NCBI RefSeq assembly: GCF_014646815.1
Contig: NZ_BMNZ01000001.1
Coordinates: 62,001 to 126,000, forward strand
Length of the DNA stretch: 64,000 bases
Reading direction: 5' to 3'
From: Terrabacter tumescens
Lineage (GTDB): Bacteria > Actinomycetota > Actinomycetes > Actinomycetales > Dermatophilaceae
Both the position numbers and the translations under genes were made by a program. The notes beneath the pieces were generated by a model. The model was not told the origin of the DNA and did no database searches. It was given only the letters and a program-made list of their open reading frames with translations. Shown here piece after piece: positions 2,755 to 58,786 of this stretch; the stretch's first letter is position 1, and each line of letters begins with the position of its first letter.

Positions 2755-3712
2755 CCGCGCCGCCGAGCACCCCGCCGACCACGCCGGGGAGCCCGCTGCC
2801 GCCGAGCCGCCGCTCACCGCGACGGGGGAGCGGGTCGAGGTGCGGCCGCCGTCGGTGGCTGACATCGAGGCGTATGCCGCTGCCGTCACCCTCTCGGAGC
2901 GGCGCCTCGCCGACTTCGCGATCCCCAACCCGCACAACCTGCCGGTCGTCCTCGACAGCCAGTCGCAGACCTACCGCACGTTCATGGTGCACGCCCTCGA
3001 TGCCGAGGGCTCGCACGGGCTCGTGGGCCGGATCAACGTCGCCAACGTCGTCGGCGGCTCGTTCCGCAGCGCGACGATCGGCTACGACTCCTACGACCCG
3101 TATGCCGGCCGGGGCCTGTTCGCCGAGGGGCTGCGGCTCACGCTCGACCTCGTCTTCGCCGACCCGCCCCAGGGGATGGGCCTGCACCGCATCGAGGCGA
3201 ACATCCAGCCGGCCAACCACCGCTCAGCCGGCCTCGTGCGCTCCCTCGGCTTCGTCCACGAGGGCTTCTCCCGCGACTTCCTGCACCTGCCCGGCCTCGA
3301 CGGGCGGCGCGACTGGCGCGACCACGACCGCTTCACCCTGCTGTCGAGCGACTGGCCGGCCGTGCCCTACCGTCCGCACGGGCACCGGCGCACCGCGTGC
3401 GTCGTCACCGGCCCCAGCGGCCCGGGCTACGGCTACGCGGGCGTCAGCCTGGCCGCGGCCGTGGCCGCCGAGCTCGGCATCCCGCTCTTCTCGGCGAGCG
3501 TCGTGGGCAGCACGGCCGCGCTCTTCGAGCTGCTCCGCGCCTCGCCCGTCGGTGGGGTGGTGGAGTGCCGGCTCTCCGGCCCCGAACTGCGGATGGGTCT
3601 GGCCCGCGCCGGCTACGAGCCCTCGGGCGTGCCCGTCCTCGACAACGCCGTCGACGTGCCCCGGCGCGAGGTCGTGAGGCAGGCCCTCGCGGTCCGCGCG
3701 GCGCGCGCCTGA
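2744..3712 (+). CDS. GNAT-family N-acetyltransferase with an unassigned C-terminal region
   Basis: N-terminal GNAT (RimJ/RimL type) domain covering roughly residues 25-210, with GRINVANVVGGSFRSATIGYD, YAGRGLFAEGLRL and HRIEANIQPANHRSAGLVRSLGF (split here for description only) corresponding to the acetyl-CoA fold. After this come about 105 residues beginning TACVVTGPSGPGYGYAG that do not look like GNAT. I chose the TTG at 2744, which overlaps the amidohydrolase end by 11 bp; an ATG at 2696 would add a low-complexity stretch that mirrors the other gene's frame, and a GTG at 2840 would cut into the domain. Substrate unknown. Confidence 0.75.
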   Translation: MSSDRAAEHPADHAGEPAAAEPPLTATGERVEVRPPSVADIEAYAAAVTLSERRLADFAIPNPHNLPVVLDSQSQTYRTFMVHALDAEGSHGLVGRINVANVVGGSFRSATIGYDSYDPYAGRGLFAEGLRLTLDLVFADPPQGMGLHRIEANIQPANHRSAGLVRSLGFVHEGFSRDFLHLPGLDGRRDWRDHDRFTLLSSDWPAVPYRPHGHRRTACVVTGPSGPGYGYAGVSLAAAVAAELGIPLFSASVVGSTAALFELLRASPVGGVVECRLSGPELRMGLARAGYEPSGVPVLDNAVDVPRREVVRQALAVRAARA

Positions 3713-3898
3713 CGAGGCGGACGGCATACGCCCTCACGGGGCCGTGTCCGGAGCACCCCTCCGGGTCTGGCAGAATTGAGTGCTGTACCCGTCCGGCCCC
3801 CTCTCGGCTGGACCGGACGCCTACACACCGAGCGTCGGCACCCCGGCTGAACCCAGTCGGTCTCGCCGCGCTCACTACTGGTTGAGGAGACCGCCACC

Positions 3899-4378
3899 AT
3901 GGCAGTCAAGATCCGTCTGAAGCGCATGGGCAAGATCCGTGCACCGTACTACCGCGTCGTCGTCATGGACTCGCGCACGAAGCGCGACGGCCGTGCCATC
4001 GAGGAGATCGGCAAGTACCACCCCACCGAGCAGCCGTCGCTCATCGACATCGACATCGAGCGCGCGCACTACTGGCTCGGCCAGGGCGCGCAGCCGACTG
4101 AGGCCGTCGCGGCGCTCATCAAGATCGTCGACGAGGGCAAGCTCCAGACCAAGGAGCCGAAGACCCCGAAGAAGGACCTCTACGAGGCCGCTGTCGCCGC
4201 TGCCGGTGGCAAGAACGACGCCGGCACCGACGGCCCGACGCCGCGCAAGAAGGCCGCCAAGAAGGCCGAGCCGAAGGCCGACGCCAAGGCTGACGAGAAG
4301 ACCGACGAGAAGACCGACGAGAAGACCGAGGCCCCGGCCGAGGCTGCTGCCGACGAGGCCGCGAAGGCCGAGGCCTGA
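3899..4378 (+). CDS. rpsP: 30S ribosomal protein S16
   Basis: 159 residues, beginning [19 protein letters not shown], the classic S16 N-terminus, followed by [21 protein letters not shown]16 is a primary assembly protein of the small subunit. The core ends near residue 85; the rest is a Lys/Ala/Glu/Asp-rich tail with three DEKT units (about residues 130-142), an extension common in actinobacteria. Ribosome-binding site GTTGAGGAGA lies 9 bp before the ATG. First gene of an rpsP-khpA unit ending at the hairpin at 4648-4682. Confidence 0.97.
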
Positions 4379-4380
4379 GC

Positions 4381-4623
4381 ATGCTCGAGGAGGCGCTCGA
4401 GCACCTCGTCAAGGGCATCGTCGACCACGACGAGGACGTCGTCGTGCGCCGCAAGGAGCTGCGTCGCGGTGAGCTGCTCGAGGTCCGGGTCCACCCCGAC
4501 GACCTCGGCCGCGTCATCGGCCGCTCCGGCCGCACGGCGAGCGCGCTGCGCACCGTCGTCGGCGCCCTCGCGGGCAACAACAACGTGCGCGTCGACATCG
4601 TCGACACCGACCGCGCGCGCTGA
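4381..4623 (+). CDS. khpA: KhpA, KH-domain RNA-binding protein
   Basis: 80-residue single KH-domain protein. It starts MLEEALEHLVKGIVDHDEDV and carries the RNA-binding loop VIGRSGRTASALRTVV at about residues 42-57. KhpA family proteins bind RNA, often as KhpA/KhpB complexes, and regulate cell division and translation in other Gram-positives. Starts 2 bp after rpsP, so it is translationally coupled. The invariable rpsP-khpA-rimM order supports the call. Confidence 0.94.
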   Translation: MLEEALEHLVKGIVDHDEDVVVRRKELRRGELLEVRVHPDDLGRVIGRSGRTASALRTVVGALAGNNNVRVDIVDTDRAR

Positions 4624-4647
4624 GCGCCGACTCCACCCGAGTCACCG

Positions 4648-4682
4648 AGAGGGGCGTCCCGGATCTACCGGGGCGCCCCTCT
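4648..4682 (+). terminator. Strong hairpin after khpA
   Basis: A 15-bp stem, AGAGGGGCGTCCCGG (4648-4662) with CCGGGGCGCCCCTCT (4668-4682), with one G.U pair and a 5-nt ATCTA loop. It sits 25 bp after khpA and before rimM. Good intrinsic terminator or attenuator separating rpsP-khpA from rimM-trmD. Confidence 0.8.
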
Positions 4683-5279: not shown

Positions 5280-6502
5280 GCGTGCACCACGAGGGGGCGC
5301 CGGCGCCCGCCATGCGCGTCGACGTCGTCACGATCTTCCCCGACTACCTCGCCCCGCTCGACCTGTCGCTCATCGGCAAGGCGCGCGAGGACGGCCTGCT
5401 CGACGTCCGGGTGCACGACCTGCGGGACTTCACCCACGACCGGCACCGCACCGTCGACGACACCCCCTACGGCGGGGGAGCGGGCATGGTCATGAAGCCC
5501 CAGCCCTGGTCCGAGGCGCTCGACCACGTTCTGGCACAGGACAACCCGACCGGCGCCAAGCCGCGGCTCATCGTCCCCGGGCCGGGTGGGCAGCCGTTCA
5601 CCCAGGCGCTCGCGCGCGAGCTCGCCGAGGAGCCGTGGCTCGCCTTCGCCTGCGGGCGCTACGAGGGCATCGACGAGCGCGTCTACGACCACGCCCGTGA
5701 GGACCTCGGTCTGGAGGTCTCGGTCGTCAGCCTCGGCGACTACGTCCTCAACGGCGGCGAGGTCGCCGTGCTCGCCATGGTCGAGGCCGTCGGCCGGCTC
5801 GTCCCCGGCGTCATCGGCAACGCCGCGTCGCTCGTCGAGGAGTCGCACGAGGACGGGCTGCTCGAGTACCCCATCTACACCAAGCCGAGCTCGTGGAACG
5901 GCCGCGAGGTGCCCCCGGTCCTGCTCTCGGGCAACCACGGCGCCATCGCCGAGTGGCGTCACGAGCAGCGGCTCGCCCGCACCGCAGCACGCCGGCCCGA
6001 CCTGCTGCACGCCTCGCACGGCACCGACGCCGGTGACATCGAGATCAGCGCTGCGACGCCGGGCGACGTGCCCGAGCTCGCCGTGCTGATGCGGGCCTGC
6101 TGGGTGCAGGAGGCCGTCGCCAACGAGACCCTCGAGATCCCCGCCCTGCACGAGAGCCTCGACGACGTCCGCGCGAGCCTCGAGCACACGCAGACCTGGG
6201 TGGCCCGCAGCGGCGGCCGCCTCGTCGGCGCGGTGCGCACGTCGCGCACCGGACCCGACGCCGACGACTGGTTCATCGGTCGCCTCTGCGTCGTCCCGGA
6301 CCTGCAGGGCCGTGGACTCGGCCGCCGCCTGCTCGAGCACGCCGAGTCGACCGCGCCGGACGGCATACGCACGTTCACCCTCCACACGGGGGCGCGCAGC
6401 ACGGACAACCTGCGGATGTACAAGAAGGCCGGCTACCGCCTCGTCGAGCAGCCCGCGTCGATCCCCGGGGCGGTCACGCTCGTCAAGCGCCGTCGCCGCT
6501 GA
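5276..6502 (+). CDS. trmD: tRNA (guanine37-N1)-methyltransferase TrmD fused to a GNAT domain
   Basis: 408 residues against about 240-270 for ordinary TrmD. The TrmD part (residues about 13-250) has [56 protein letters not shown] and [14 protein letters not shown], all typical of the trefoil-knot SAM-binding methyltransferase that makes m1G37. From about residue 255 a second domain begins ([22 protein letters not shown]), with the GNAT acetyl-CoA loop [20 protein letters not shown] and [12 protein letters not shown]. The frame is continuous, so this is a true fusion and not a frameshift. Start is GTG at 5276, overlapping rimM; an internal ATG at 5312 would also fit the TrmD core. The acetyltransferase substrate is unknown. 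Confidence 0.95.
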
Positions 6503-7273: not shown

Positions 7274-7501
7274 GGGCCCACGCTAGGGCACGGCCGGCCT
7301 ACGCTCGCCTCACCGATTTCAGGTATGCCGCGTGCTCTGGCAGACTTGCTCCTTGCGTCCGGCACATGACGGCCCCTGCCACAGGGGGAGTTCGGTCACC
7401 ACCTCGCACGACCAGCAGCACCGGTGACCTGACGCGGCCCGACGGACGCATCCACACCTTTGTGACGAGGTGGCCTGTGGCACCCAGGAAAGCGAAGCAT
7501 C

Positions 7502-7903: not shown

Positions 7904-8701
7904 GTGACGCAAGGCGCGGTGGACCCCGAGCGGGCCGTCCCGGAGACATCCGGGACGCCCCCAGAGGCGGGGTCCGCCGCGCCTTCGTCGCGTCCGGGCG
8001 AGGGCGGCGCGCCGGGTGCTGGTCGTGCGGGTCTGGCCGGTCGGTCCGGGGCGTATGCCGCCGCGCGACGTCACCGGTGGCTGCTCGGTCCCGCGCTGCT
8101 GCTGCTCGCGATCGTGGTGATCCGGGCCTTCCTCGTGACGCCCTTCGGCATCCCGAGCGAGTCCATGCAGGACACCCTGCTCATCGGTGACCGCATCCTC
8201 GTCAGCCGCACGACGGCGCCGGCGGACCTGCGCCGCGGCGACATCGTCGTCTTCGACGCCTCCCAGGCCTTCAACCTCCGCGTGCCCGAGCGCGGCCTCC
8301 TCCAGACCTTGGTCGAGGCCGTCGAGAGCCTGGCCGGCAAGGGCCAGCCGACCGACTACGTCAAGCGCATCATCGGGCTGCCCGGCGACCACGTGAGGTG
8401 CTGCGCCGCCGACGGCCGTCTCGAGATCAACGGCGTCGCCGTCACCGAGCCCTACGTGGCACCGGGGCAGAAACCGAGCCTGCTCACCTTCGACGTGACG
8501 GTGCCGCCCGACCGGTTCTGGGTCATGGGCGACAACCGGGGATCGTCCGCGGACTCCCGTGCGCACCTCGGCGACCCGGGTGGCGGCATGGTGCCGGGGG
8601 ACGACATGATCGGCAAGGTTTGGGTGCGATACTGGCCGCTCGATCGGCTCGGACCGGTCGAGCAAGGACAAATTGCCTCCGTCCCACGAAATGGTGAGTG
8701 A
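7904..8701 (+). CDS. lepB: Signal peptidase I (first of two)
   Basis: 265 residues. A Pro/Gly/Ala-rich cytoplasmic N-terminus is followed by one membrane segment (about residues 58-78, WLLGPALLLLAIVVIRAFLV) and the catalytic domain. The Ser nucleophile is S87 in IPSESM and the Lys general base is K154 in [14 protein letters not shown]; box E is FWVMGDNRGSSADSRAHLG. It cleaves signal peptides of exported proteins. GTG start at 7904; the stop overlaps the next lepB (TGATG). A Cys pair at CC in DHVRCCAADGRLEING is unusual. Confidence 0.95.
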   Translation: MTQGAVDPERAVPETSGTPPEAGSAAPSSRPGEGGAPGAGRAGLAGRSGAYAAARRHRWLLGPALLLLAIVVIRAFLVTPFGIPSESMQDTLLIGDRILVSRTTAPADLRRGDIVVFDASQAFNLRVPERGLLQTLVEAVESLAGKGQPTDYVKRIIGLPGDHVRCCAADGRLEINGVAVTEPYVAPGQKPSLLTFDVTVPPDRFWVMGDNRGSSADSRAHLGDPGGGMVPGDDMIGKVWVRYWPLDRLGPVEQGQIASVPRNGE

Positions 8702-9620: not shown

Positions 9621-10400
9621 ATGGCACGACCTGCACCGTCGAAGAAACCGTCCCTGCGGGTCGAGCGCGCCCTGCAGCGCTCCGGCCACCGCCTCCTCGC
9701 CGGCATGGACGAGGTGGGCCGGGGCGCCCTCGCGGGCCCGGTCAGCGTCGGCGTCGTCGTCATCGACGAGACCGTGCGGTCCGCGCCCACTGGGGTCAAG
9801 GACTCCAAGCTGCTGACCGAGCGGGCCCGCACGGTGCTCGTGCCGCGCATCCAGCGGTGGTCGGTCGCCCACGCGGTCGGGCACGCGAGCGCCGACGAGA
9901 TCGACGAGATCGGCATCATGGCCGCCCTGCGGCTGGCCGGCCTCCGCGCCCTCGGGGCCATCCGTGACGCCGGGATCGTGCCCGACCTCGTCATCCTCGA
10001 CGGCAACCACGACTGGCTCACCGCGCCGACGGAGGTCGGCCTCTTCGCCTTCGCGGACGCGCACGGCCCGGCGACGCCGCCGGTGACGACCATGGTCAAG
10101 GCAGACCTGAAGTGCTCCTCCGTCGCGGCCGCGAGCGTGCTGGCGAAGGTCGAGCGCGACGAGATGATGGTGACCTTCTCGGCCCAGCACCCGGCATACG
10201 GCTGGGCGCTCAACAAGGGCTACTCGGCGCCCGAGCACATGGACGCGCTCACGCGGCTCGGCCCGTGCGAGCTGCACCGTCGCTCGTGGCGCCTGCCCGG
10301 CGTGTACGCCGAGGGGCCGGTCGAGGTGTTGAATGAGGGCACGGAGAACCTCGCTCCGGTGCCCACCACGGCAGAGCAGACAGGGACGGCGATCAGGTGA
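9621..10400 (+). CDS. rnhB: Ribonuclease HII
   Basis: 259 residues. RNase HII motif [13 protein letters not shown] (D30, E31), then [10 protein letters not shown] and [25 protein letters not shown], supplying the carboxylates for two-metal catalysis. It removes RNA from RNA:DNA hybrids and single ribonucleotides from DNA. About 35 residues after the core ([18 protein letters not shown]) are low-complexity. The stop overlaps the DUF2469 gene by 4 bp (GTGA). Confidence 0.96.
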
Positions 10401-10717: not shown

Positions 10718-10828
10718 CGTCCGGCCGCTTGGCCGCGTCGTCCACACCCCCTCACCGATGGCGTATGCCGTCCACAGCCACGCGCCGACGGGTGTCCTCC
10801 GCGGGTCGCCGCCGGGAGAGTGGCCGGC

Positions 10829-15930: not shown

Positions 15931-17098
15931 CTCGGGGGCGGGTGCCGGCGGCGGCGAGGCGACGGCTCGCCTCGAGCAGGACCTCGTCCTTCTTGCAGAA
16001 CGCGAACCGGACCAGGGTGCGCGCCGCGTCCTGGTCGTCGTGGAAGACCGACACGGGCACCCCGACCACGCCGGCGATCTCGGGCAGCCGTCGCGCGAAG
16101 TCCAGCCCGTCCACGGCGCCGAGGGGCGCGGCGTCGGCGATGACGAAGTACGTCCCCGACGGGCGGGCGACCTGCAGCCCGGACGTCTCGAGCGCCGAGC
16201 ACAGCAGGTCGCGCTTGGCCTGCAGCGAGTCGCGCAGGCCGGCATACACCTGGTCGCCGAGACCCAGGGCCACGGCCACCGCCGGCTGGAAGGGGCCGGA
16301 CCCGACGTAGGTGAGGAACTGCTTGACGGTGCGTGCCGCGGCGACCGCCTCGGCCGGCCCCGAGAGCCATCCGACCTTCCACCCCGTCGCGGAGAACGTC
16401 TTGCCGGCGGAGCTGATCGTGATGGTCCGCTCGGCCATCCCCGGCAGGGTCGCCACCGGCACGTGCTGCGCGTCGTCGAAGACCAGGTGCTCGTAGACCT
16501 CGTCGGTGACGACCCACGCGTCGTGCTCGCGGGCGAGAGATGCGACCAGCTCGAGCTCGTCGCGCGTGAAGACCTTGCCCGTGGGGTTGTGCGGGGTGTT
16601 GAGCAGCACGAGGCGGGTGCGCGGCGAGAACGCCGCCCGCAGCGACGCCTCGTCGACGGCGAAGTCGGGGAAGCGCAGCACCGACGTGCGGCGGGTCGCT
16701 CCGGCGAGGGCGATCGTGGCGGCATACGAGTCGTAGTACGGCTCGAAGGTGACGACCTCGTCGCCGGGCTCGCACAGCGCGAGCACGACCGACGCGATGG
16801 CCTCGGTCGCGCCGACGGTGACGAGCACCTGCGACGACGGGTCGAGCCGGATGCCGTAGAAGCGCTCCTGGTGGGCGGCGACCGCCTCGAGCAGCTCGGG
16901 GACGCCGGGGCCGGGCGGGTACTGGTTGCGCCCGGCGTCGATGGCCGCCTTGGCCGCGTCGAGCATCACGCGCGGGCCGTCGGTGTCGGGGAAGCCCTGG
17001 CCGAGGTTGATGGCACCGGTCCGGGTGGCCAGCATCGACATCTCGGCGAAGATCGTGGTGCCGAAGGGCTGCATGCGCGAGATCAGCGGCGAGCTCAT
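15923..17098 (-). CDS. Pyridoxal phosphate-dependent aminotransferase (class I/II)
   Basis: 391 residues from ATG at 17098 (MSSPLISRMQPFGTTIFAEM). Fold-type I features: INLGQGFPDTDGP, the VTVGATEAIASVV segment, NTPHNPTGKVFT, DEVYEHLVFD, and PLP Lys K233 in ISSAGKTFSATGWKVGW. This resembles the kynurenine/glutamine/methionine aminotransferase group (YbdL/KAT-like); the specific amino acid cannot be read from sequence. A longer frame upstream to 17278 exists but crosses two hairpins and lacks family similarity. Minus strand, downstream of the DUF6541 gene. Confidence 0.92.
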   Translation of the reverse strand: MSSPLISRMQPFGTTIFAEMSMLATRTGAINLGQGFPDTDGPRVMLDAAKAAIDAGRNQYPPGPGVPELLEAVAAHQERFYGIRLDPSSQVLVTVGATEAIASVVLALCEPGDEVVTFEPYYDSYAATIALAGATRRTSVLRFPDFAVDEASLRAAFSPRTRLVLLNTPHNPTGKVFTRDELELVASLAREHDAWVVTDEVYEHLVFDDAQHVPVATLPGMAERTITISSAGKTFSATGWKVGWLSGPAEAVAAARTVKQFLTYVGSGPFQPAVAVALGLGDQVYAGLRDSLQAKRDLLCSALETSGLQVARPSGTYFVIADAAPLGAVDGLDFARRLPEIAGVVGVPVSVFHDDQDAARTLVRFAFCKKDEVLLEASRRLAAAGTRPRVE

Positions 17099-17270: not shown

Positions 17271-17353
17271 CTCACCATCGCGGACGGGACGAAAGCGTTA
17301 CGCCCATCGCCGGAGAAATGCGCGAAGAAGTGGACGTATGCCGTGTGGCCGGC

Positions 17354-19273
17354 TCAGCCGGCCGCGCCGAGGCCGCAGCCGGTGACGCGGTAGAGCGTGT
17401 AGTCGCCGTCGGTGCGTACCGGCTCGACCCCGTCGACGTGGGCGAGGTCCTTGAGGCCGGAGGACCGCTCGGGCCGGTCGAGCCAGTAGACGTGCGTCGA
17501 GTCGACGGCCCAGCGGATGTCGTGGCGCGCCATGGCCTCGCACACGTCGGGGCGGTGCTCCATGTCGTTGAACCCGGTGCCGATGACGATCTCGTCGCCC
17601 GTCGTGGGGATGGGGATCGAGCGGTAGAGCGTGTTGGTGCCGAACAGCGGCCACATGAGGGGTGAGCCGTTCTCGGGGCGGCCCACGACGCCCTGGCCGG
17701 CGGGGATGAGCGCGGCGAGGCGGCGCAGCGAGTCCTGGCCTTCGAACGAGAGGATGACCCGCTCGGGCGACGTGGGGCGGAAGAATCCGCTCAGCATGCG
17801 GTGGCGGGTGGCCCCGTTGAGCCCCAGCGTGAGGACGGGGATCACGAGCACGGCGACGAGGCCCACGGCGACGGGGCGCGACCCGAGCGCGGGCACCTTG
17901 CGCAGCAGCTCGCGCAGGGCCGGGGCGGCGGCCGCGACGAGGACGACACCGGGGACCGCGGCCAGCGAGGCGAGCCGGACCTTGTCGTTGTACCAGTAGC
18001 CGGTCACGAGCGAGGTCCACGACAGCGTCGACGACGCCGCCATGACGTAGAGCACGACGCAGGCGAACCACATCGCCACGACCGGCAGGGCCGCCCTGAC
18101 GCGCAGTGCGATCCAGCCGATCCCGAGGGCTAGCAGGACCACGAGCCCCCAGAGCACGTCGGGGATCTGCAGCCGGCCGCCGACCACCTCGACGAGCGCC
18201 GTCCAGACCGGCACGCGGTCCTTCCACTGGTAGGACTGGGTCGAGGCGAGCTGGGCCGAGACGACGGGTGCGGCCACGAGCCCCGCCACGCCGACGGCGG
18301 CCACCACGGCGAGGTCGCGCGCGACCACCCACCACGACAGGTGGCGGAGCAGGCCGGCCCGCAGGCGAGCCGTCACGAACCAGACGAGGGCGAAGACGAC
18401 GAGGGCGACGAGGGCGTTGGGCTGGATGAGGGCGAGGCCGGGCATCGCCGCGACGAAGCCGAGCCACTGGCCGATCCGCCTCGAGCGCGCGGCCTGCAGC
18501 AACAGGGCGAGGGCGCCCGGCGTGAGGGCGGTCGCCATGAGGTTGGGCCAGAGCACGCCCCACCCGAGGAGGATCGTCGGGAAGGCGATGAAGGCCGCGG
18601 AGGCGAACCCCGCGGCATACGTGACGAGGCGGGACGTGCCGAGCGCGTGGCGCACGAGGGCCACGCAGCCGATCGGCCACACGAGCGCGGCGAGCACGAT
18701 CGTCGCGACGTTGGTGCCGGGCAGCACGTCGGCGACGCCCGGCAGCAGCCCGGTGGCGATCCACGAGTGGAAGCCGTTGGGGTAGAACGTCGGGTTGGCG
18801 ATGGAGAAGTTGCCCGACTCGAGGAACGTCTTGATCCGGCCGAGGTGGTAGACCGCGTCGGGGGAGTCGACGAGCTCGTCGGGGCGCCCCATGGCCGGCA
18901 GGATCGTCGCGAGCGCGAGGACGGCGCCGATGACGATGGCCACGACGGCGTCGGGGCGGGGGCGGCCGAGCAGGCGGCGGGCCGCCCCGAGCTCGGGGTC
19001 GTGCCGGCCGAAGACGCGCATCCCGCCCCAGGCGAGCGCCACGCAGACCGCCGTCACGACGGCGAGCGGCAGCAGCCCCCAGCGCACGCCGACCCGTTGG
19101 GCGACGGTCGCGAACGCGGCGATCAGGCCGGTCGAGACGGCGGGGGAGACCGCCAGCGCCTCGAGGCCGCGGGCCCCGAGCGCACGCACGAGCAGCCAGC
19201 CGGGAAGGAAGAGGACGACCGAGAGGACGACGAAGGTCGGGATCGTCTCAACCCAGTGCGCCATGCGGGCCAT
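17354..19273 (-). CDS. Large polytopic membrane protein, DUF6541 family (glycosyltransferase-C-like topology)
   Basis: About 639 residues from the ATG at 19273 (MARMAHWVETIPTFVVLSVV); an ATG nine bases further in is equally possible. More than ten hydrophobic segments fill residues 10-500. A hydrophilic loop follows the first membrane pairs with DSPDAVYHLGRIKTFLESGN and NPTFYPNGFHSWIATGL, resembling the acidic extracytoplasmic loop of GT-C enzymes. A soluble C-terminal part (about 520-639) ends with YWLDRPERSSGLKDLAHVDG. Assignment to DUF6541 rests on this pattern. A role in cell-surface polysaccharide or lipid glycosylation is inference. Confidence 0.75.
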   Translation of the reverse strand: MARMAHWVETIPTFVVLSVVLFLPGWLLVRALGARGLEALAVSPAVSTGLIAAFATVAQRVGVRWGLLPLAVVTAVCVALAWGGMRVFGRHDPELGAARRLLGRPRPDAVVAIVIGAVLALATILPAMGRPDELVDSPDAVYHLGRIKTFLESGNFSIANPTFYPNGFHSWIATGLLPGVADVLPGTNVATIVLAALVWPIGCVALVRHALGTSRLVTYAAGFASAAFIAFPTILLGWGVLWPNLMATALTPGALALLLQAARSRRIGQWLGFVAAMPGLALIQPNALVALVVFALVWFVTARLRAGLLRHLSWWVVARDLAVVAAVGVAGLVAAPVVSAQLASTQSYQWKDRVPVWTALVEVVGGRLQIPDVLWGLVVLLALGIGWIALRVRAALPVVAMWFACVVLYVMAASSTLSWTSLVTGYWYNDKVRLASLAAVPGVVLVAAAAPALRELLRKVPALGSRPVAVGLVAVLVIPVLTLGLNGATRHRMLSGFFRPTSPERVILSFEGQDSLRRLAALIPAGQGVVGRPENGSPLMWPLFGTNTLYRSIPIPTTGDEIVIGTGFNDMEHRPDVCEAMARHDIRWAVDSTHVYWLDRPERSSGLKDLAHVDGVEPVRTDGDYTLYRVTGCGLGAAG

Positions 19274-19551
19274 TGTGTCGGGTCGCCACGATTTCTCCAC
19301 CACCCGGGTCAGGACGTACGATGGCTGGCGGTCACGTGTGCTCGTCGCACGGGACCGAAATTCGCGCGTCTTCTGCCGGTCCGCCGGACCGGGTCGCACC
19401 ACGGCAGTCCCCATCCGCTCGCGGAGGGGCGGGGTGCGTCAGGCGCCAGGAGTGAGGTCGTATGCCGCCCGCCGGGCCACGTGCTCCACGTGACCGCCGA
19501 GCGCCAGCGCCCACGCACAACTGACAACAACGAAACAAGGGAGAACACGGC

Positions 19552-21430: not shown

Positions 21431-21474
21431 CGACGTATGCCGGTCGCCCCCTTGAGGGGCGGCCGGCATCGTCG
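21431..21474 (+). terminator. Terminator of rpsB-tsf
   Basis: Long stem: CGACG-T-ATGCCGGTCGCCCC (21431-21450) against GGGGCGGCCGGCATCGTCG (21456-21474), loop CTTGA, one bulged T and one G.U pair. The octamer GTATGCCG (21435-21442) forms part of the stem. 58 bp after tsf. Confidence 0.82.
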
Positions 21475-22172: not shown

Positions 22173-22270
22173 GGATCTGCTTGTGAGGCAAGCCTTCTGT
22201 CTCCGAGGTCACAGCCCCGTTGTCTGCTGGCTCACAGCCGACGGCATACCCTCCGGGGTACCGTCGAACC

Positions 22271-35937: not shown

Positions 35938-36008
35938 GGCCAGATCCTTTCACATGATGTCCCTCCGGCCACTCGTTCGACCGATGGCGTATGCCGCAGG
36001 CTGGGCCC

Positions 36009-40634: not shown

Positions 40635-41573
40635 ATGGTCGGTGTGCTCGAGGGTTTCGCCACCATCGCGATCATCGTCGCGGTGGGGTGGCTCCTCGCC
40701 GACCGCCGCGTCCTAGACGACTCGGCGCAGGTCAACCTCTCGCGCCTCGCCTTCCACGTCGCCTCGCCTGCGCTGCTCCTGACCGTCATGCAGCGCACGT
40801 CGCTCGACGCTGTCCTGTCGGCGAACCTCGTGACGTCGCTCATCAGCTTCGCGCTCGTCGTGGGTCTCTACCTGCTCATCGCCCGGTTCCGTTGGGCGGG
40901 AGGGCCGCTCGGTTCACGGCTCATCGGCAGCCTCTCGGCGGCCTACGTCAACGCGGGCAACCTCGGCATCCCCATCGCGCTCTACGTCCTCGGCGACGTC
41001 GCGTGGGTGGCGCCGACGCTGCTCATGCAGCTGCTCATCATCACGCCCGTCTACATGGCGCTCTTCGACAGCGACGCGCGCGGTGAACGCCCGACCCTCG
41101 GCCGAAGTCTGCGGCGGATGTTCAGCAACCCGATCACGCTCGGTGCCGTCGCGGGCCTGCTCATCGCCGTGTTCGACATCGACCTGCCGCGCGTCGTCGC
41201 GGCGCCCATCGACCTGCTCGGTGCGATGGCCGTCCCCTCGATGCTCGTCGCCTTCGGCATCTCGCTGCGGCGCGGCCCGCGACCTGCGACCGGTCGCTCC
41301 GCGGGTCACGTGTGGACGATCGTCGGCCTCAAGACCCTGCTCATGCCCGCGATCGCGTTCGGCGTGGGTCTGGCGCTGGGCCTGCGCGGCGAGGCGCTGT
41401 TCGCCGTCGTCGTGACGGCTGCCCTCCCGACGGCGCAGAACATCTTCACGTATGCCGTCCGCTACCGGCGGGAGGTCAACCTCGCCCGCGACGTCATCTT
41501 CGTCAGCACGTTCGCCTCGGTGCCGGTGATCCTCGGGATCGCCGGGCTCTTCCACTGGCTCGCCGGCGTCTGA
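40635..41573 (+). CDS. AEC family transporter
   Basis: 312 residues from ATG 40635, divergent from the LOG gene (81-bp gap). Auxin-efflux-carrier fold with about ten membrane helices in two five-helix halves; SAAYVNAGNLGIPIALYVLG in helix 4 and AALPTAQNIFTYAVRY in helix 9 are the crossover regions with conserved Asn and Pro. Members move malonate, malate or other organic anions; substrate here unknown. Confidence 0.9.
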   Translation: MVGVLEGFATIAIIVAVGWLLADRRVLDDSAQVNLSRLAFHVASPALLLTVMQRTSLDAVLSANLVTSLISFALVVGLYLLIARFRWAGGPLGSRLIGSLSAAYVNAGNLGIPIALYVLGDVAWVAPTLLMQLLIITPVYMALFDSDARGERPTLGRSLRRMFSNPITLGAVAGLLIAVFDIDLPRVVAAPIDLLGAMAVPSMLVAFGISLRRGPRPATGRSAGHVWTIVGLKTLLMPAIAFGVGLALGLRGEALFAVVVTAALPTAQNIFTYAVRYRREVNLARDVIFVSTFASVPVILGIAGLFHWLAGV

Positions 41574-43042: not shown

Positions 43043-43091
43043 GCCGGCGACACCCCCACGGCATACGCACGGAGTCAGGGAGGGCCAGGGG

Positions 43092-45153: not shown

Positions 45154-46602
45154 ATGACTTCCCAGCCGCGCCAGCTCCGCAACTTCATCGGTGGCCAGTA
45201 CGTCGACCACGAGGGCGACGCGACGGCCGACATCGTCGACCCGTCGACCGCCCAGGTCGTGGCCAAGGCCCCCGTCAGCACCCAGTCCGACGTCGACCGG
45301 GCGTATGCCGCGGCGTCGACCGCGTTCGAGACGTGGGGCGACACGACCCCGGGCGAGCGCCAGGCCGCCCTGCTGAAGTTCGCCGACGCCATCGAGGCCC
45401 GCGCCGAGGACCTCATCCGCCTCGAGGGCGAGAACACCGGCAAGCCGCACGCCCTGACGCGGAGCGAGGAGATCCCGCCGATGGTCGACCAGCTGCGCTT
45501 CTTCGCCGGCGCGGCGCGCGTCCTCGAGGGCAAGTCGGCCGGCGAGTACATGAAGGGCCACACCTCCTTCGTGCGCCGCGAGCCCATCGGGGTCGTCGGC
45601 CAGGTGACCCCGTGGAACTACCCGATGATGATGGCGATGTGGAAGATCGCCCCGGCGCTCGCCGCGGGCAACACCATCGTCCTCAAGCCGTCCGACACGA
45701 CGCCCGAGACGACGCTGCTCATGGCCGAGCTCGCCTCGGAGTTCCTGCCCGAGGGCACCTTCAACGTCATCACCGGTGACCGCGAGACCGGGCGCATGCT
45801 CGTCGAGCACCCGACGCCGGCACTCGTGGCGATCACCGGTTCGGTGCGGGCCGGCATGCAGGTCGCCGAGAGCGCGTCGCGCGACCTCAAGCGGGTGCAC
45901 CTCGAGCTCGGCGGCAAGGCGCCGGTCATCGTCTTCGACGACGCCGACATCGAGGCTGCAGTCGAGGGCATCGCGGGCGCCGGCTACTTCAACGCCGGGC
46001 AGGACTGCACCGCGGCCACCCGCGTGCTCGCCGGACCGCGGGTCCACGACGACTTCGTCGCCGCCCTGGCCGAGTACGCCCGCAGCTCGGTCAAGGTCGG
46101 CATGCCGTCCGACGACGACGCGAGCCTCGGCCCGGTCAACAACGTCAACCAGATGGCGCACGTCTCGGGGTTCATGGACCGGCTGCCCGACCACGCCCGC
46201 GTGGCCGCCGGCGGGTCGCGCATCAACACCCTCGGCGACGGCTTCTTCTTCGAGCCGACCGTTCTCGCGGGCCTGCGCCAGGACGACGAGCACATCCAGA
46301 GCGAGATCTTCGGGCCCGTCATCACGGTGCAGCAGTTCAGCGACGAGGCCGAGGCTCTCGCCTGGGCCAACGGCGTGCAGTACGGCCTCGCCTCGAGCGT
46401 GTGGACCCGCGACTTCGGCAAGGCCATGCGCATGAGCAAGAAGCTCGACTTCGGCTGCGTCTGGATCAACACCCACATCCCGATCGTCGCCGAGATGCCG
46501 CACGGGGGTTTCAAGCACAGCGGCTACGGCAAGGACCTCTCGATGTACGGCCTGGAGGACTACACCCGCATCAAGCACGTCATGGCCAACATCGACTCCT
46601 GA
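45154..46602 (+). CDS. patD: Gamma-aminobutyraldehyde dehydrogenase
   Basis: 482 residues. ALDH superfamily with VTPWNYPMMMAMWKIAPALA, catalytic E251 (LELGGKAP) and nucleophile C285 (NAGQDCTAATR), and SEIFGPVITVQQF. Sequence around NAGQDCTAATRV and the partners nearby point to aminobutyraldehyde dehydrogenase (Prr/PatD), which oxidises 4-aminobutyraldehyde to GABA with NAD+. Divergent from lrp, followed by a hairpin at 46606-46632 before potD. Confidence 0.93.
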   Translation: MTSQPRQLRNFIGGQYVDHEGDATADIVDPSTAQVVAKAPVSTQSDVDRAYAAASTAFETWGDTTPGERQAALLKFADAIEARAEDLIRLEGENTGKPHALTRSEEIPPMVDQLRFFAGAARVLEGKSAGEYMKGHTSFVRREPIGVVGQVTPWNYPMMMAMWKIAPALAAGNTIVLKPSDTTPETTLLMAELASEFLPEGTFNVITGDRETGRMLVEHPTPALVAITGSVRAGMQVAESASRDLKRVHLELGGKAPVIVFDDADIEAAVEGIAGAGYFNAGQDCTAATRVLAGPRVHDDFVAALAEYARSSVKVGMPSDDDASLGPVNNVNQMAHVSGFMDRLPDHARVAAGGSRINTLGDGFFFEPTVLAGLRQDDEHIQSEIFGPVITVQQFSDEAEALAWANGVQYGLASSVWTRDFGKAMRMSKKLDFGCVWINTHIPIVAEMPHGGFKHSGYGKDLSMYGLEDYTRIKHVMANIDS

Positions 46603-50801: not shown

Positions 50802-52049
50802 ATGCGTGTCCTCATGATCGGCTCCGGTGGAGTCGGTGACGCCGCCGCGCGCATCGCGTCCGAGCGAGACTTCTTCGACCGCTGGGTCGTCGCCGACTAC
50901 GACGTCGCGCGTGCCGAGCGCACCGTCGCGGCCGTCACCGGCCGCCGGCCGGGTGAGTCGCGCTTCGTCGCGGCCAGGGTCGACGCCTCGTCGGCCGAGG
51001 CGGTGACGGCGCTGGCCCTCGAGCACGGCGCGTCGCACGTCTTCAACGCCGTCGACCCGAAGTTCAACATGTCGGTCTTCGACGGGGCCAAGGCCGCCGG
51101 GGCCGACTACCTCGACATGGCGATGAGCCTGTCGCAGCGTCATCCCGAGCAGCCGTATGCCGTCACCGGGGTCAAGCTCGGCGACGAGCAGTTCGCGGTT
51201 GCGGGGGAGTGGGAGGCCGACGGCCGGCTCGCGCTCGTCGGCATCGGCGTCGAGCCCGGCCTGTCCGACGTCTTCGCCCGCTACGCCGCCGACCACCTCT
51301 TCTCCGAGATCGACGAGCTCGGCACCCGCGACGGGGCCAACCTCGTCGTGCACGACGAGCTCGGCAACGAGGTCTTCGCGCCGAGCTTCTCGATGTGGAC
51401 GACGATCGAGGAGTGCCTCAACCCGCCGGTCGTGTGGGAGAAGGACCGCGGCTGGTTCACCACCGCGCCGTTCAGCGAGCCGGAGGTCTTCGACTTCCCG
51501 GAGGGCATCGGGCCGGTCGAGTGCGTCAACGTCGAGCACGAGGAGGTCCTCCTCATGCCGCGCTGGGTCGACGCCAGGAGGGTCACCTTCAAGTACGGCC
51601 TCGGCGACGAGTTCATCACCATCCTCAAGGTCCTCAATACTCTCGGCCTGGACCGCACCGAGCCGATCACGGTCAAGGGCGTGCAGGTCTCGCCGCGCGA
51701 CGTCGTGGCGGCGGCGCTGCCCGACCCGGCGACCATCGGCCCGCGGATGACCGGCAAGACGTGTGCCGGCCTCTTCGTCACGGGCACCGGCAAGGACGGC
51801 CGACCGCGGCGCACGTACCTCTACCACCTCGTCGACAACGCCGACACGATGCGCGACTACGACGCCCAGTGCGTCGTCTGGCAGACGGCGATCAACCCGG
51901 TCGTCGCGCTCGAGCTGCTCGCCCGCGGCACGTGGAAGGGTGTCGGCGTCCTCGGCGCCGAGGCGTTCGACGCCGTTCCCTTCCTCGACCTGCTCGCCGC
52001 GCCCAAGCCGGAGGGCTACGGCTCCCCGTGGGGCCTCGACGAGCGGTGA
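50802..52049 (+). CDS. Saccharopine dehydrogenase family protein
   Basis: 415 residues, 6 bp after potC. N-terminal Rossmann domain: MRVLMIGSGGVGDAAARIAS, then HVFNAVDPKFNMSVFDGAKA and ADYLDMAMS. C-terminal catalytic/dimerisation domain covers about 130-400 (GIGVEPGLSDVFARYAADHL). The family includes saccharopine reductase and carboxynorspermidine dehydrogenase. Its place inside the polyamine operon makes a polyamine-derived substrate plausible, but there is no lysine-degradation gene to decide between options. Confidence 0.87.
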   Translation: MRVLMIGSGGVGDAAARIASERDFFDRWVVADYDVARAERTVAAVTGRRPGESRFVAARVDASSAEAVTALALEHGASHVFNAVDPKFNMSVFDGAKAAGADYLDMAMSLSQRHPEQPYAVTGVKLGDEQFAVAGEWEADGRLALVGIGVEPGLSDVFARYAADHLFSEIDELGTRDGANLVVHDELGNEVFAPSFSMWTTIEECLNPPVVWEKDRGWFTTAPFSEPEVFDFPEGIGPVECVNVEHEEVLLMPRWVDARRVTFKYGLGDEFITILKVLNTLGLDRTEPITVKGVQVSPRDVVAAALPDPATIGPRMTGKTCAGLFVTGTGKDGRPRRTYLYHLVDNADTMRDYDAQCVVWQTAINPVVALELLARGTWKGVGVLGAEAFDAVPFLDLLAAPKPEGYGSPWGLDER

Positions 52050-52132: not shown

Positions 52133-53602
52133 ATGGCAGCGGTGACACAGAAGTCAGTGATCGACGCAGTGCCCAAGGGCCTGCTCATCGGTGGGCAGTG
52201 GCGTGACGGCAGCGAGGGAGAGACCATCGCGGTCGACGACCCCTCGAACGGCAAGGTGCTGACCCACGTCGCGGCGGCGTCCGTCGCCGACGGCCGGGCG
52301 GCGCTCGACGCCGCGGTGGCGGCGCAGGCGGACTGGGCCCGCACGGCCCCGCGCGACCGTGGCGAGCTGCTGCGGGCGGCATACGAGAAGATCACCGAGC
52401 GCGCGGACGAGTTCGCGATGCTCATGACGCTCGAGATGGGCAAGACGCTCGCCGAGAGCCGCGGCGAGGTCGCCTACGGCGCCGAGTTCTTCCGCTGGTT
52501 CTCCGAGGAGGCCGTGCGCATCTCGGGTCGCTGGTCGACGGCCCCCAACGGGGCAACCCGTCTCATGACGATGAAGCAGCCCGTCGGCCCGACGCTGATG
52601 ATCACGCCGTGGAACTTCCCGCTCGCGATGGGCACCCGCAAGATCGGCCCCGCCATCGCGGCCGGCTGCACCATGGTCGTCAAGCCGGCGAGCCAGACGC
52701 CCCTGACGATGCTCGCCCTCGCCGAGCTGCTGCGCGAGTGCGGCCTGCCCGACGGCGTGCTCAACGTCGTCATGACGACGCACGGCACCACCGGCGACGT
52801 CATGGAGCCGCTCATCCGCGACCCGCGCCTGCGCAAGCTGACCTTCACCGGCTCGACGCCCGTGGGCCGTTCGCTCATGGAGCAGGCGTCGCAGGGCATC
52901 CTGCGGGTCTCGATGGAGCTCGGCGGGAACGCGCCGTTCCTCGTCTTCGAGGACGCCGACGTCGAGAAGGCCGTCGAGGGCGCGATGCTCGCCAAGATGC
53001 GCAACATGGGCGAGGCCTGCACGGCCGCCAACCGCTTCTACGTCCACGAGTCGCTCGCCGACGAGTTCAGCGCCAAGCTGGCCCGCCGGATGGGTGCCCT
53101 GACCCTCGGCAAGGGCACCAAGGACGGCGTCGACGTCGGCCCGCTCGTCGACGAGAAGGCCCGCGACAAGGTCTCGGCGCTCGTCGACGACGCCGTCTCC
53201 AAGGGCGCCAAGGTCCTCGTGGGTGGCAAGGTGCCCGACGGCGCGGGCTGGTTCTACGAGCCGACCGTGCTCGCGGACGTCCCCGACGACGCCGACATGG
53301 CCCGCGAGGAGATCTTCGGACCGGTCGCCCCGGTCACGACGTTCCGCACCGACGCCGAGGCGATCCGCCTGGCCAACGACACCGAGTATGGCCTCGTGGC
53401 CTACCTGTTCACCCAGGACCTCTCGCGCGCCATCACGATGAGCGAGGCGCTCGAGTACGGCATGGTCGGCGTCAACCAGGGCATCGTCTCCAACCCGGCG
53501 GCTCCCTTCGGCGGCGTCAAGGCCTCCGGGGTCGGGCGCGAGGGCGGCTTCGAGGGCATCGACGAGTACCTCGAGACGAAGTACGTCGGCATCGCCCTCT
53601 GA
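52133..53602 (+). CDS. gabD: NAD(P)-dependent succinate-semialdehyde dehydrogenase
   Basis: 489 residues. ALDH family: ITPWNFPLAMGTRKIGPAIA, FTGSTPVGRSLMEQAS, catalytic E262 (SMELGGNAPFLVFEDAD), nucleophile C296 (GEACTAANRFYV), EEIFGPVAPVTTF, and the C-terminal GVGREGGFEGIDEYLETKYV typical of GabD/SSADH. Oxidises succinic semialdehyde to succinate, the last step of putrescine-GABA catabolism. The GABA transaminase itself could be the class III enzyme at 43092 or lie elsewhere. Confidence 0.92.
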   Translation: MAAVTQKSVIDAVPKGLLIGGQWRDGSEGETIAVDDPSNGKVLTHVAAASVADGRAALDAAVAAQADWARTAPRDRGELLRAAYEKITERADEFAMLMTLEMGKTLAESRGEVAYGAEFFRWFSEEAVRISGRWSTAPNGATRLMTMKQPVGPTLMITPWNFPLAMGTRKIGPAIAAGCTMVVKPASQTPLTMLALAELLRECGLPDGVLNVVMTTHGTTGDVMEPLIRDPRLRKLTFTGSTPVGRSLMEQASQGILRVSMELGGNAPFLVFEDADVEKAVEGAMLAKMRNMGEACTAANRFYVHESLADEFSAKLARRMGALTLGKGTKDGVDVGPLVDEKARDKVSALVDDAVSKGAKVLVGGKVPDGAGWFYEPTVLADVPDDADMAREEIFGPVAPVTTFRTDAEAIRLANDTEYGLVAYLFTQDLSRAITMSEALEYGMVGVNQGIVSNPAAPFGGVKASGVGREGGFEGIDEYLETKYVGIAL

Positions 53603-54677: not shown

Positions 54678-54686
54678 CCACCCGAT

Positions 54687-54755
54687 GGCGTATGCCGTGT
54701 GGCTGCGCGAGCGAGCCCGCGCGGGCACGCGGGAGGTCACGTGACGGCATACGCC
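54687..54755. terminator. Inverted pair of octamers between convergent genes
   Basis: GGCGTATGCCGT (54687-54698) is the exact reverse complement of ACGGCATACGCC (54744-54755). The loop has a GC-rich internal inverted repeat (GAGCCCGCGCGGGCACGCG region). It lies in the 88-bp gap between the convergent helicase-like and barstar genes, so it likely terminates both. Both arms are copies of the window-wide GTATGCCG octamer. Confidence 0.65.
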
Positions 54756-56963: not shown

Positions 56964-57025
56964 CGCCCGTCGATGGCGCAAGGACGATCAGGTCCACTGT
57001 CGGCGCCCGGCGCTAGCGTCGGAGG

Positions 57026-57547
57026 ATGCTCGAGACACCTGACGAGACCGCCGCCCTGCAGGCCCTGCTCGACGCCTCCCACGAGCGCGCGACGGGCCAC
57101 CTGCGCAGCATCATCGACGACGACCGCACCCTGACGGCCGAGCAGCTCGTCGCGCTGCTGACCGGCATGAAGGTGCTGTCCGTCGCCACCGTCACGGCGG
57201 CCGGCGAGCCGCGCATCAGCGCCCTCGACGGTCACTTCCTCCACGGCACGTGGACCTTCGGCACGGCAGGGAGCTCGGCCAAGGCCAGGCACCTCGCGGC
57301 GCGGCCCGCAGTCAGCGTCGCCCACATCGACGGCGAGGACCTGGCGCTCTTCAGCCACGGCCGGGCCGAGCTCATCGAGCCGGGTCCGGAGCGGGACGAG
57401 GTCGACGCGCACTGGACCGCCCACTACGGCAGCAGCCCCTTCAGCTGGGGCGACGACATCCGGATGTACCGCCTGCGCATGACGTGGGCCGTCGCCTACG
57501 CCTTCAAGCGTGACGAGCTCTTGCGGTCCAGGGGAGTGACCACCTGA
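57026..57547 (+). CDS. Pyridoxamine 5'-phosphate oxidase family protein
   Basis: 173 residues. Split-barrel FMN-binding fold: VLSVATVTAAGEPRISALDG, FGTAGSSAKARHLAARPAVS and DGEDLALFSHGRAELIEPGP, followed by RMYRLRMTWAVAYAFKRDEL. It is the general flavin/F420-binding PNPOx-like group, not PdxH. Substrate unknown. Last gene of the 24-kb insertion before dxr. Confidence 0.87.
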   Translation: MLETPDETAALQALLDASHERATGHLRSIIDDDRTLTAEQLVALLTGMKVLSVATVTAAGEPRISALDGHFLHGTWTFGTAGSSAKARHLAARPAVSVAHIDGEDLALFSHGRAELIEPGPERDEVDAHWTAHYGSSPFSWGDDIRMYRLRMTWAVAYAFKRDELLRSRGVTT

Positions 57548-57580
57548 GCCGCCGGCCGGCACCTGCGCGAGAATGCCGGG

Positions 57581-58786
57581 GTGACTGACACCCCGGCCCG
57601 TCCCCGCCGCATCGTCCTGCTCGGATCGACCGGCTCGATCGGCACTCAGGCCCTCGACCTCGTGCACCGCAACCGCGACCGCTTCGAGGTCGTCGGGCTC
57701 TCGGCCGGCGCCAACCTCGACCTCGTCGCCGAGCAGGCCGTCGCCCTCCGAGTTCCCGTCGTGGCCGTGGCGAGCGGGACGCCGGACGACCTCGCGGCAG
57801 CGCTCGCGCGCGCGGCCGACGCGGCCGGCGTCACGGCATACGACCCCGACCTGCTCGTCGGCCCCGACGCGAGCTCGACGCTGGCCGCCCGGGACGCCGA
57901 CGTCGTCGTCAACGGCATCACCGGTGCGATCGGGCTCGAGCCGACGCTCGCGGCCCTGCGGGCCGGGACGATCTTGGCGCTCGCCAACAAGGAGTCGCTC
58001 ATCATCGGCGGCCCGCTCGTCAAGGCGCTCGCGGCGCCCGGGCAGATCGTGCCCGTCGACAGCGAGCACTCCGCCATCGCCCAGTGCCTGCGCGGAGGCC
58101 GCGCCGAGGAGGTGCGACGGCTCGTCGTGACCGCCAGCGGCGGGCCGTTCCGCGGGCGCTCGCGAGCCGAGCTCGCCGGCGTCACGCCCGAGCAGGCGCT
58201 CGCGCACCCGAACTTCTCGATGGGCCGCGTCATCACGACGAACTCGGCGACGCTCGTCAACAAGGGTCTCGAGGTCATCGAGGCACACCTGCTCTTCGAC
58301 ATCCCGTTCGAGCGCATCGACGTCGTCGTGCACCCGCAGCAGATGATCCACTCGATGGTCGAGTTCGTAGACGGGTCGACCATCGCCCAGGCCGGACCGC
58401 CACGGATGCTCGTGCCCATCGCGCTCGGCATGAGCTGGCCCGAGCGCATCGCCGACGCCGACGTGCCCGTCGACTGGACCAGGGCGCAGAGCTGGGAGTT
58501 CGAGCCGCTCGACGACGAGGCCTTCCCTGCGGTCGCGCTGGCCCGCCGGGTGGGGGAGGCGGGCGGCACGTGGCCGGCTGTCTACAACGCCGCCAACGAG
58601 GTCGCCGTCGACGCCTTCCACGAGGGCCGCATCGGCTTCGTCGACATCGTCGACACGGTGGCCGTGGTCGTGGACTCGTATGCCGCAGAGCCGGCCTCGC
58701 AGGTGCGCGACCTCACCCTCGACGACGTCCTCGCCGCCGACACCTGGGCCAGGAGCGCCGCCGAGCGCAGCATCCCCACCCCCTGA
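57581..58786 (+). CDS. dxr: 1-deoxy-D-xylulose 5-phosphate reductoisomerase
   Basis: 401 residues. NADPH motif [43 protein letters not shown], the substrate-metal site [20 protein letters not shown] then [20 protein letters not shown], and [17 protein letters not shown]. Second step of the MEP isoprenoid pathway; the pathway gene ispG lies 1.5 kb downstream. GTG start at 57581. Confidence 0.96.

Follow-up and report, generated by a model that had tools for sequence, protein, structure and literature searches.

The octamer GTATGCCG occurs in 36 exact copies, 20 on the plus strand and 16 on the minus strand, within a 64,000-nucleotide stretch of DNA from Terrabacter tumescens (G000:C1:62001-126000, hereafter the window; G000, its own genome, comprises 4,707,860 bases). 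Comparisons across the family to which Terrabacter belongs (186 genomes in 53 genera, labelled G and g, respectively) indicate that something holds these eight bases in place, or seven of them in a relaxed dialect. The spacing of the copies indicates further that the two orientations are treated separately, with one copy making others in the same orientation superfluous for about 1 kb. We judge the chances to be about even that GTATGCCG is an address tag of the DNA uptake sequence (DUS) kind that evolved in this family. As an element that works like a DUS, it would be an analogue and not a proven member of that class.

The abundance of the octamer is far beyond expectation. One hundred dinucleotide shuffles of the window contain a mean of 0.64 copies and at most 5, and Markov models of order 1, 2 and 3 predict 0.77, 0.78 and 1.83 copies. 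A preliminary description of the window, made by eye, had reported the 36 copies with their 20:16 strand split, and few expected by chance. An exact search agrees at every position save one (16720 instead of 16730). The same search locates all 36 occurrences of TATGCC inside the octamer, as had been claimed, and finds exactly 4 occurrences of the variant GTACGCCG, which had been put at about four. The three identical 16-mers that had been pointed out (CCGATGGC followed by GTATGCCG) are visible in the site contexts. Eleven copies had been called intergenic; we find 10 outside called genes and 2 more at gene edges (35989 and 43059), a division that, like all genic and intergenic figures here, depends on a rough gene caller.

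The excess extends to the whole genome, where GTATGCCG occurs 2358 times (1158 + 1200 by strand) and the reversed octamer 199 times (111 + 88). A 446-kb stretch of contig 1 that includes the window was used for codon and spacing analyses and holds 223 copies. Called genes in this stretch contain 153 copies, compared with a mean of 7.2 and a maximum of 12 in 30 synonymous-codon shuffles, and the intergenic pieces contain 65, compared with 1.8 under a second-order Markov model. Sites that are intergenic or at gene edges make up 72 of the 223, where 40 are expected from gene-caller coverage; in a 400-kb stretch from a second genus (G142), 107 are intergenic and 87 are expected. A single reading frame dominates the coding copies (87 of 151 sites), the commonest being Tyr-Ala. 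The motif accounts for 87 of 154 TAT codons and 17 of 30 ATA codons in the 446 kb.

The arrangement of the copies depends strongly on orientation. Of 222 pairs of neighbouring copies in G000, 148 are inverted, as are 261 of 370 in G142 and 140 of 216 in G009 (400 kb, from a third genus, g4). None of 10,000 orientation shuffles reaches the observed count in any of the three genomes, and 1 of 20,000 does so in a separate G000 run. Same-orientation pairs closer than 1 kb number 18, 84 and 17 in G000, G142 and G009, compared with 55, 172 and 59 under uniform placement, while opposite-orientation pairs number 60, 199 and 70, compared with 56, 171 and 58. Pooled over the three genera, 119 same-orientation pairs are observed against 286 expected, and 329 opposite pairs against 285. 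The same-orientation deficit fades at 1-2 kb (19 versus 27.6, 71 versus 85.6 and 30 versus 29.3 in the 1-1.5 kb bin), and the site density of G142 is nearly twice that of G000 and G009. Opposite pairs less than 100 bp apart, where hairpins lie, number 48 against 28.5 expected, and those from 100 bp to 1 kb number 281 against 257. Twenty-four 20-kb pieces of enriched genomes, many of them orthologous and hence not independent, contain 21 same-orientation pairs within 1 kb (57 expected) and 70 opposite pairs (62 expected). Spacing within one orientation has a coefficient of variation of 0.68-0.69 in G000 and 0.79-0.81 in G142. Each strand has its own set of tags, in which a single copy is enough for about 1 kb along the direction it faces. 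Exclusion in the same orientation without exclusion in the opposite one implies that something reads each strand directionally over this distance.

Gene direction and transcription do not explain the exclusion in G000. A null model that keeps gene positions and the numbers of sense, antisense and intergenic sites predicts 59.4 same-orientation and 55.5 opposite pairs, compared with the observed 18 and 60. Transcription was rejected as the cause because the deficit is alike in sense-sense (9 versus 20.4), antisense-antisense (1 versus 5.8) and intergenic (2 versus 13.2) pairs. The codon-matched control CTACGNCG is clustered in the same orientation, as gene direction demands and opposite to the behaviour of GTATGCCG. 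Over 400-446 kb of chromosome per genome the strands are nearly balanced, with splits of 114:109 in G000, 196:175 in G142 and 119:98 in G009, and no replication-like strand bias is seen in 50-kb bins of the three genomes. The earlier statement that the motif is not polar is therefore accurate at chromosome scale and fails locally, where orientation matters strongly. Close inverted pairs (up to about 60 bp) occur in the +-/-+ arrangements 5/2 times in G000, 10/6 in G142 and 4/0 in G009; their stems range from 8 bp, which is no more than the motif, up to 17 bp. Intergenic copies of GTATGCCG are not concentrated between convergent genes.

The sites are held in place, most clearly around Terrabacter. 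The first 26 kb of the window (the dprA region) were aligned with ten named relatives, four of 14 loci being left out (one short metagenome contig and three distant ones). With Intrasporangium flavum set aside, 86 of 113 aligned cells retain the exact octamer, compared with 24-43% per species for nearby control octamers. Humibacillus (80% identity) keeps 9 of 11 octamers and Intrasporangium oryzae (79%) keeps 8 of 12. I. flavum (83% identity) keeps 1 of 13, below its controls (27%); among the 8 ungapped sites that have changed in it, C replaces the T of position 4 in 7. In the comEC region, seven congeners retain the G000 sites in 44 of 51 cells, compared with 39% for controls. Conservation is weaker in g4, at 1/10, 8/12, 7/11 and 6/14 cells with each of four genomes as query (controls 21-34%), where the cells are not independent and relaxed forms are scored as losses. 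Where the trait is gone, the sites appear to drift to C, as under GC-biased mutation. Sites that are held and then drift to C on loss argue against a mutation scar and for a reader.

A further word, ATCGGCAA, is the strongest other word in the 21 kb of I. flavum and is over-represented in I. oryzae and T. aerolatus too. It occurs 6-8 times, against 0.3-0.4 expected, in the dprA region of three species (L092, L099, L100), including the one that has lost the tag, and may reflect a codon effect.

Enrichment in GTATGCCG is a family trait. Thirty of the 53 genera include a genome with more than 390 copies, at densities of about 0.1 to 1.4 per kb, and the rest are mostly near background. Counts are 1423-2358 in each of the nine genomes belonging to the window's genus; the nine genomes of g30 have 1971-3277, eleven of g44 have 625-3986, and G100 has 4724. 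Tag-free genera include g27 (9-38 copies in all sixteen genomes) and g47 (18-35 in all twelve). Intermediate counts of about 150-360 are found in g3, g9, g10, g13, two g15 genomes and one g52 genome. Three cases look like losses within genera: G114, with 50 copies versus 394-1901 in the other 30 genomes of g42; G084, with 19 versus 3681 and 1062 in its two congeners; and G008, with 37 versus 1251-1660 in its four g4 congeners. An order-level draw of 258 genomes, searched for GTATGCCG only, included 238 from 19 other families; none of these exceeds 177 copies, and in the genome with that number the reversed word reaches 135. One phage of Tetrasphaera jenkinsii (58% GC) carries 2 copies in 49 kb. 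The idea that the octamer is a selected genome-wide signature or protein-binding site fits these results: it is kept in near relatives, recurs across the family, and is far above codon-aware expectation (153 versus 7.2 in genes).

Some lineages use altered forms of the word. The sixth base is relaxed in g4 (GTATGVCG), such that 400 kb of G009 contain 217 copies of GTATGCCG, 70 of GTATGGCG, 50 of GTATGACG and 19 of GTATGTCG, compared with 1-2 of each sixth-base variant in G000 and G142. The A and G forms of G009 lie within 1 kb of GTATGCCG in the same orientation 20 times (63.2 expected) and in the opposite orientation 58 times (66.8 expected); this exclusion, confined to copies facing the same way, indicates that they act as one signal with GTATGCCG. 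Dialects built on GTACG (GTACGNCG) are less certain than GTATGVCG. Whole-genome excess of GTACGCCG is found, for example, in G089 (4185) and G002 (2366). In sampled pieces, GTACGNCG exceeds CTACGNCG, which matches it in all but the base preceding the Tyr codon, in G084 (134:28), G002 (59:18), G089 and G090 together (51:18), G088 (53:17) and G015 (23:4), and slightly in G014 (17:11). No excess is seen in the tag-free G001 (26:32), G154 and G158 together (30:37), G052 (15:19), G010 (4:14), G183 (10:17), G020 (17:19), G114 (8:9) and G008 (14:51). Overlapping copies of the GTACG dialect form CGNCGTACGNCG, and these dialects may act partly as palindromes or be fading.

Other words were observed in the same samples. 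GTAGACC occurs 54 times in 80 kb of G008 (L025, L026, L074, L091), the g4 genome without GTATGCCG, against 17 under an order-3 Markov model; it is possibly the dialect of G008, and codon effects reach similar ratios. The observed/expected ratio of GTAC is 0.5-0.7 in GTATGCCG-dialect samples, 0.89 in the mixed G147 and 0.73-0.95 in most others, and is low in the tag-free G008 (0.54) and G114 (0.67) too. CTATCTG occurs 14 times in 20 kb of G049:C40:54001-74000 (L076), against 0.9 expected, perhaps as a local repeat.

The copies in the window are listed below; each line is an exact copy of GTATGCCG, with the extended form given where present.

2872..2879, plus strand, in a called gene; kept in 3 of 6 aligned relatives
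3100..3107, plus strand, in a called gene; in the alignment of relatives
3722..3729, minus strand, outside called genes
6361..6368, minus strand, in the trmD reading frame, at its acetyltransferase-like end
7323..7330, plus strand, outside called genes
8053..8060, plus strand, in a called gene
10192..10199, minus strand, in the RNase HII gene
10755..10770, plus strand, CCGATGGC + GTATGCCG with the extended Terrabacter flank, outside called genes and upstream of a gene of Mg-chelatase/ComM-like type; 8 of the 9 relatives aligned here retain the core
16240..16247, minus strand, in a called gene
16720..16727, minus strand, in a called gene (16730 in the preliminary description)
17336..17343, plus strand, outside called genes
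18613..18620, minus strand, in a called gene
19460..19467, plus strand, outside called genes, before rpsB
21435..21442, plus strand, outside called genes, after tsf
22242..22249, minus strand, outside called genes; among aligned relatives kept in I. flavum alone
24500..24507, plus strand, in a called gene
26475..26482, minus strand, in a called gene
27322..27329, plus strand, in a called gene
28892..28899, minus strand, in a called gene
28985..28992, plus strand, in a called gene
31200..31207, plus strand, in a called gene
32404..32411, minus strand, in a called gene
35727..35734, minus strand, in a called gene
35981..35996, plus strand, extended form CCGATGGC + GTATGCCG, gene edge
37421..37428, minus strand, in a called gene
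37677..37684, plus strand, in a called gene
40077..40084, plus strand, in a called gene
41450..41457, plus strand, outside called genes; a gene was possibly overlooked by the caller
43059..43066, minus strand, gene edge
45303..45310, plus strand, in a called gene
51155..51162, plus strand, in a called gene
52377..52384, minus strand, in a called gene
54682..54697, plus strand, CCGATGGC + GTATGCCG, outside called genes; left half of an inverted pair
54745..54752, minus strand, outside called genes; right half of the inverted pair, 55 bp apart
57834..57841, minus strand, in dxr
58678..58685, plus strand, in dxr

Intergenic sites of G000 prefer the flank C-G-A-(T/G)-G-(G/A)-C before the core and T after it, which accounts for the three 16-mers; G142 has mild flank preferences only. 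In Terrabacter sp. MAHUQ-38 (L096), alone among the aligned Terrabacter, the sites at 8053, 18613 and 19460 read GTACGCCG, and this strain may be moving to the C dialect. In the window, the last part of the trmD frame (5276-6502) resembles a GNAT acetyltransferase (residues about 293-388), so that the frame possibly encodes a TrmD-GNAT fusion. The window also encodes DprA (PF02481) and a Mg_chelatase-family protein, which we take to be ComM-like. The nearest match to the window DprA is that of Terrabacter aerolatus (92% identical), and further close matches come from Terrabacter, Terracoccus, Humibacillus, Intrasporangium and two more members of the same family group, which places the genome in Terrabacter (Dermatophilaceae/Intrasporangiaceae).

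A route by which such a tag could arise and persist can be proposed. The DNA-binding part of the family's transformation apparatus (Tad-type pilus, ComEC, DprA) would bind the tag in double-stranded DNA of kin, and the orientation of the tag would decide which strand, and hence which flank, enters. Tagged fragments would recombine more often, so that tags would accumulate and persist by biased transmission, and a second same-orientation tag within one imported stretch would gain nothing. A changed receptor in one species would give rise to a dialect, and where specificity is lost the tags would be lost by mutation. In the actinobacterium Micrococcus luteus, Flp/Tad pili are needed for transformation (PMC6370729; this and the other papers are cited from the excerpts available to us). 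We hold it possible, with a little less confidence than an even chance would warrant, that GTATGCCG represents the first uptake-type address system in a Gram-positive phylum, one with its own dialects across a single family and read one way only. In that system, which we advance tentatively, each tag would serve about 1 kb of one strand, and the two strands would carry independent, regularly spaced sets. A DNA receptor of a new kind, specific for the sequence and perhaps part of a Tad/Flp pilus, would be its reader.

Several observations weigh against an uptake tag. ComEC and Tad genes occur in tag-free genomes too, so that the presence of the machinery does not predict the tag, which suggests that a specificity factor is missing from the picture. 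ComEC (180 of 186 genomes) and T2SSF-domain proteins (183 of 186) do not separate the genomes and were rejected as determinants, as was a PilM-type type IV pilus, which is present in only 7 of 186. Tad-like T2SSF genes are found in all 14 genomes examined closely, G001 having a single match. By a prfB-like gene, where gene names were assigned partly by eye, the tag-free G183 and G154 have the same TadA, B, C, E, F and G as G000, G009, G165 and G008, and Tad minor pilins are present in two tag-free genomes as in enriched ones. No receptor candidate emerged from the ComEC, T2SSF, Tad and PilM comparisons. In the window strain itself the prfB-side tadA is split (G000:C6:330001-350000, L086, 11597-18517): two T2SSE pieces flank about 5.4 kb of DNA with a GC content of 0.653 versus 0.708, which contains a gene for a serine recombinase with Resolvase and Recombinase domains. 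Elsewhere, too, mobile elements are known to sit in transformation genes.

The same side of the balance includes observations on spacing and dialects. Total spacing is not even, with coefficients of variation of 0.84 in G000 and 1.09 in G142. In G009 the GTATG[AG]CG forms show only a slight deficit among themselves (14 versus 19.2 within 1 kb; 5 versus 1.9 within 100 bp). Exclusion by GTACGMCG is weak in G089 (126 versus 173 same-orientation pairs within 500 bp), and exclusion by the GTACG dialect is hardly visible in G084. Conservation of GTACGCCG sites is close to that of controls in G089 (2 of 9 cells, controls 18%) and in G090 (2 of 8, controls 16%). No excess of GTACGNCG over CTACGNCG is seen in the 20-kb pieces of G013 (4:8) and G004 (15:18), despite whole-genome GTACGCCG counts of 2529 and 785. 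The G013 piece (G013:C28:27001-47000, L081) has no GTACGCCG; that genome is listed with 5% contamination, and its assembly may be mixed. Finally, orientation governs the spacing of GTATGCCG, whereas the orientation of the uptake signal sequence (USS) of Haemophilus influenzae is described as having no effect on uptake (PMC1939737).

The failure of Tad and ComEC to correlate with the tag also favours a directional function in the living chromosome that is unrelated to DNA exchange, such as a place where a translocase, nucleoid protein or repair protein is loaded or stopped. Direction and a reach of about 1 kb hold whatever the reader is; we nevertheless consider such a function unlikely. The loss-like cases (G008, G084, G114, and I. 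flavum at one locus) would speak against an essential chromosome function, and no strand pattern is seen along the chromosome.

A Chi-like recombination signal also seems improbable. A helicase-nuclease such as AdnAB would meet GTATGCCG from one side after a break and switch to recombination, both orientations being needed because breaks occur anywhere. A tracking enzyme of this kind would produce direction-specific exclusion, and Chi of E. coli is also an octamer. The 50-kb bins of three genomes lack the replication-like polarity of known Chi, however, and the exclusion spans about 1 kb in genomes that differ in site density. RecC was rejected as the reader, being patchy (89 of 186 genomes) and not correlated with the tag. 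G000 lacks it, as do 7 of its 8 congeners (G176 alone has it), and it is present in 15 of 16 tag-free g27 genomes, a distribution that speaks against RecBCD as the reader.

Two ideas raised in the preliminary description, a HIP1-like site associated with a DNA methyltransferase and a scar left by C-to-T change at methylated GTACGCCG, seem to us very improbable. The comparison with HIP1 is apt as regards abundance and, as described for HIP1 (PMC4390886), lineage-specific replacement, but not as regards palindromy, since GTATGCCG is not a palindrome. Methylation is disfavoured by a test of two methyltransferase families in 42 genomes, 27 of them enriched. PF00145 is present in 21 and PF01555 in 9 of the 42, and neither is found in 11 of the 27 enriched genomes (G173, G007, G009, G045, G079, G108, G110, G115, G117, G139 and G168), so neither is common to them. 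In favour of conversion, GTACGCCG in coding DNA of the 446 kb is half its codon-shuffle mean (27 versus 55.5). This deficit of 28 is a fifth of the gain in GTATGCCG, which lies 146 above its own mean, and 7 of the 8 ungapped changed I. flavum sites carry C at position 4. The large tag-free genera hold little GTACGCCG (130-317 copies per genome in g27, 448-656 in g47); an excess is seen elsewhere, in g3, g35 and individual genomes. The idea that C-to-T conversion keeps the sum of GTATGCCG and GTACGCCG constant, considered from 40-kb samples, is rejected on the family counts and the codon shuffle, and a mutation scar would not be expected to give orientation-specific exclusion. Ordinary codon or amino-acid bias, with which the common Tyr-Ala frame would agree, deserves practically no credence, being refuted by the codon shuffle (153 versus 7.2), together with the intergenic excess (65 versus 1.8) and the clustering, instead of exclusion, of codon-matched CTACGNCG in the same orientation.

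Words by which bacteria recognise their own kind of DNA for uptake are known from the Neisseriaceae and Pasteurellaceae. If the uptake interpretation is true, an independent origin in Gram-positive soil bacteria would mean that such tags evolve repeatedly, and GTATGCCG would offer a handle for transforming these organisms. The loss-like cases and the dialects within genera provide natural pairs for finding the reader. Among the open-licence full texts listed in searches, none was seen to describe this word earlier or to report uptake words from these or other Gram-positive bacteria, which is weak evidence, and GTATGCCG does not appear in the available excerpt of an octamer-frequency study (PMC3497702).

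Chi, uptake words and HIP have been named as classes of such oligomers, and HIP1 is replaced or lost in some lineages (PMC4390886). The tag has the sequence-level features of the uptake class that were tested, and lacks the polarity of Chi and the palindromy of HIP1. The tag resembles Chi in being an octamer with a single direction of reading; Chi follows the polarity of replication, whereas the tag shows no replication co-orientation and RecC does not correlate with it. It shares with cyanobacterial HIP1 a huge over-representation and replacement or loss in some lineages (PMC4390886), and differs in that HIP1 is palindromic and its genomes generally have matching methyltransferases, while GTATGCCG is neither a palindrome nor correlated with PF00145 or PF01555.

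The resemblance to uptake words is closer. The USS core has a longer preferred flank, and the tag is similar to the USS of Pasteurellaceae in combining a short core with such a flank, one favoured frame and regular spacing within each orientation. The machine differs, and for USS both orientation and position are described as without effect on uptake in H. influenzae (PMC1939737). Known uptake sequences have no chromosomal orientation bias, a non-coding excess and about 10% inverted repeats (PMC1939737), one favoured orientation in reading frames and intergenic hairpins (PMC2346458), and dialects with an invariant core across a family (PMC3630211). Like the DUS of Neisseriaceae, GTATGCCG is non-palindromic, is present in hundreds to thousands of copies without chromosomal polarity, is in excess in intergenic DNA, forms some hairpins from inverted pairs, and has family-restricted dialects with an invariant core. 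It differs from the DUS, for which ComP is the receptor, in sequence and phylum, in the rarity of PilM (7 of 186 genomes) and in having no identified ComP counterpart. Orientation-specific exclusion, measured here, is a rule not seen in the cited descriptions of uptake words, as far as the excerpts extend. It gives a quantitative trace of the reach and direction of a single tag, is measurable in any genome with DUS or USS, and bears on strand choice in uptake.

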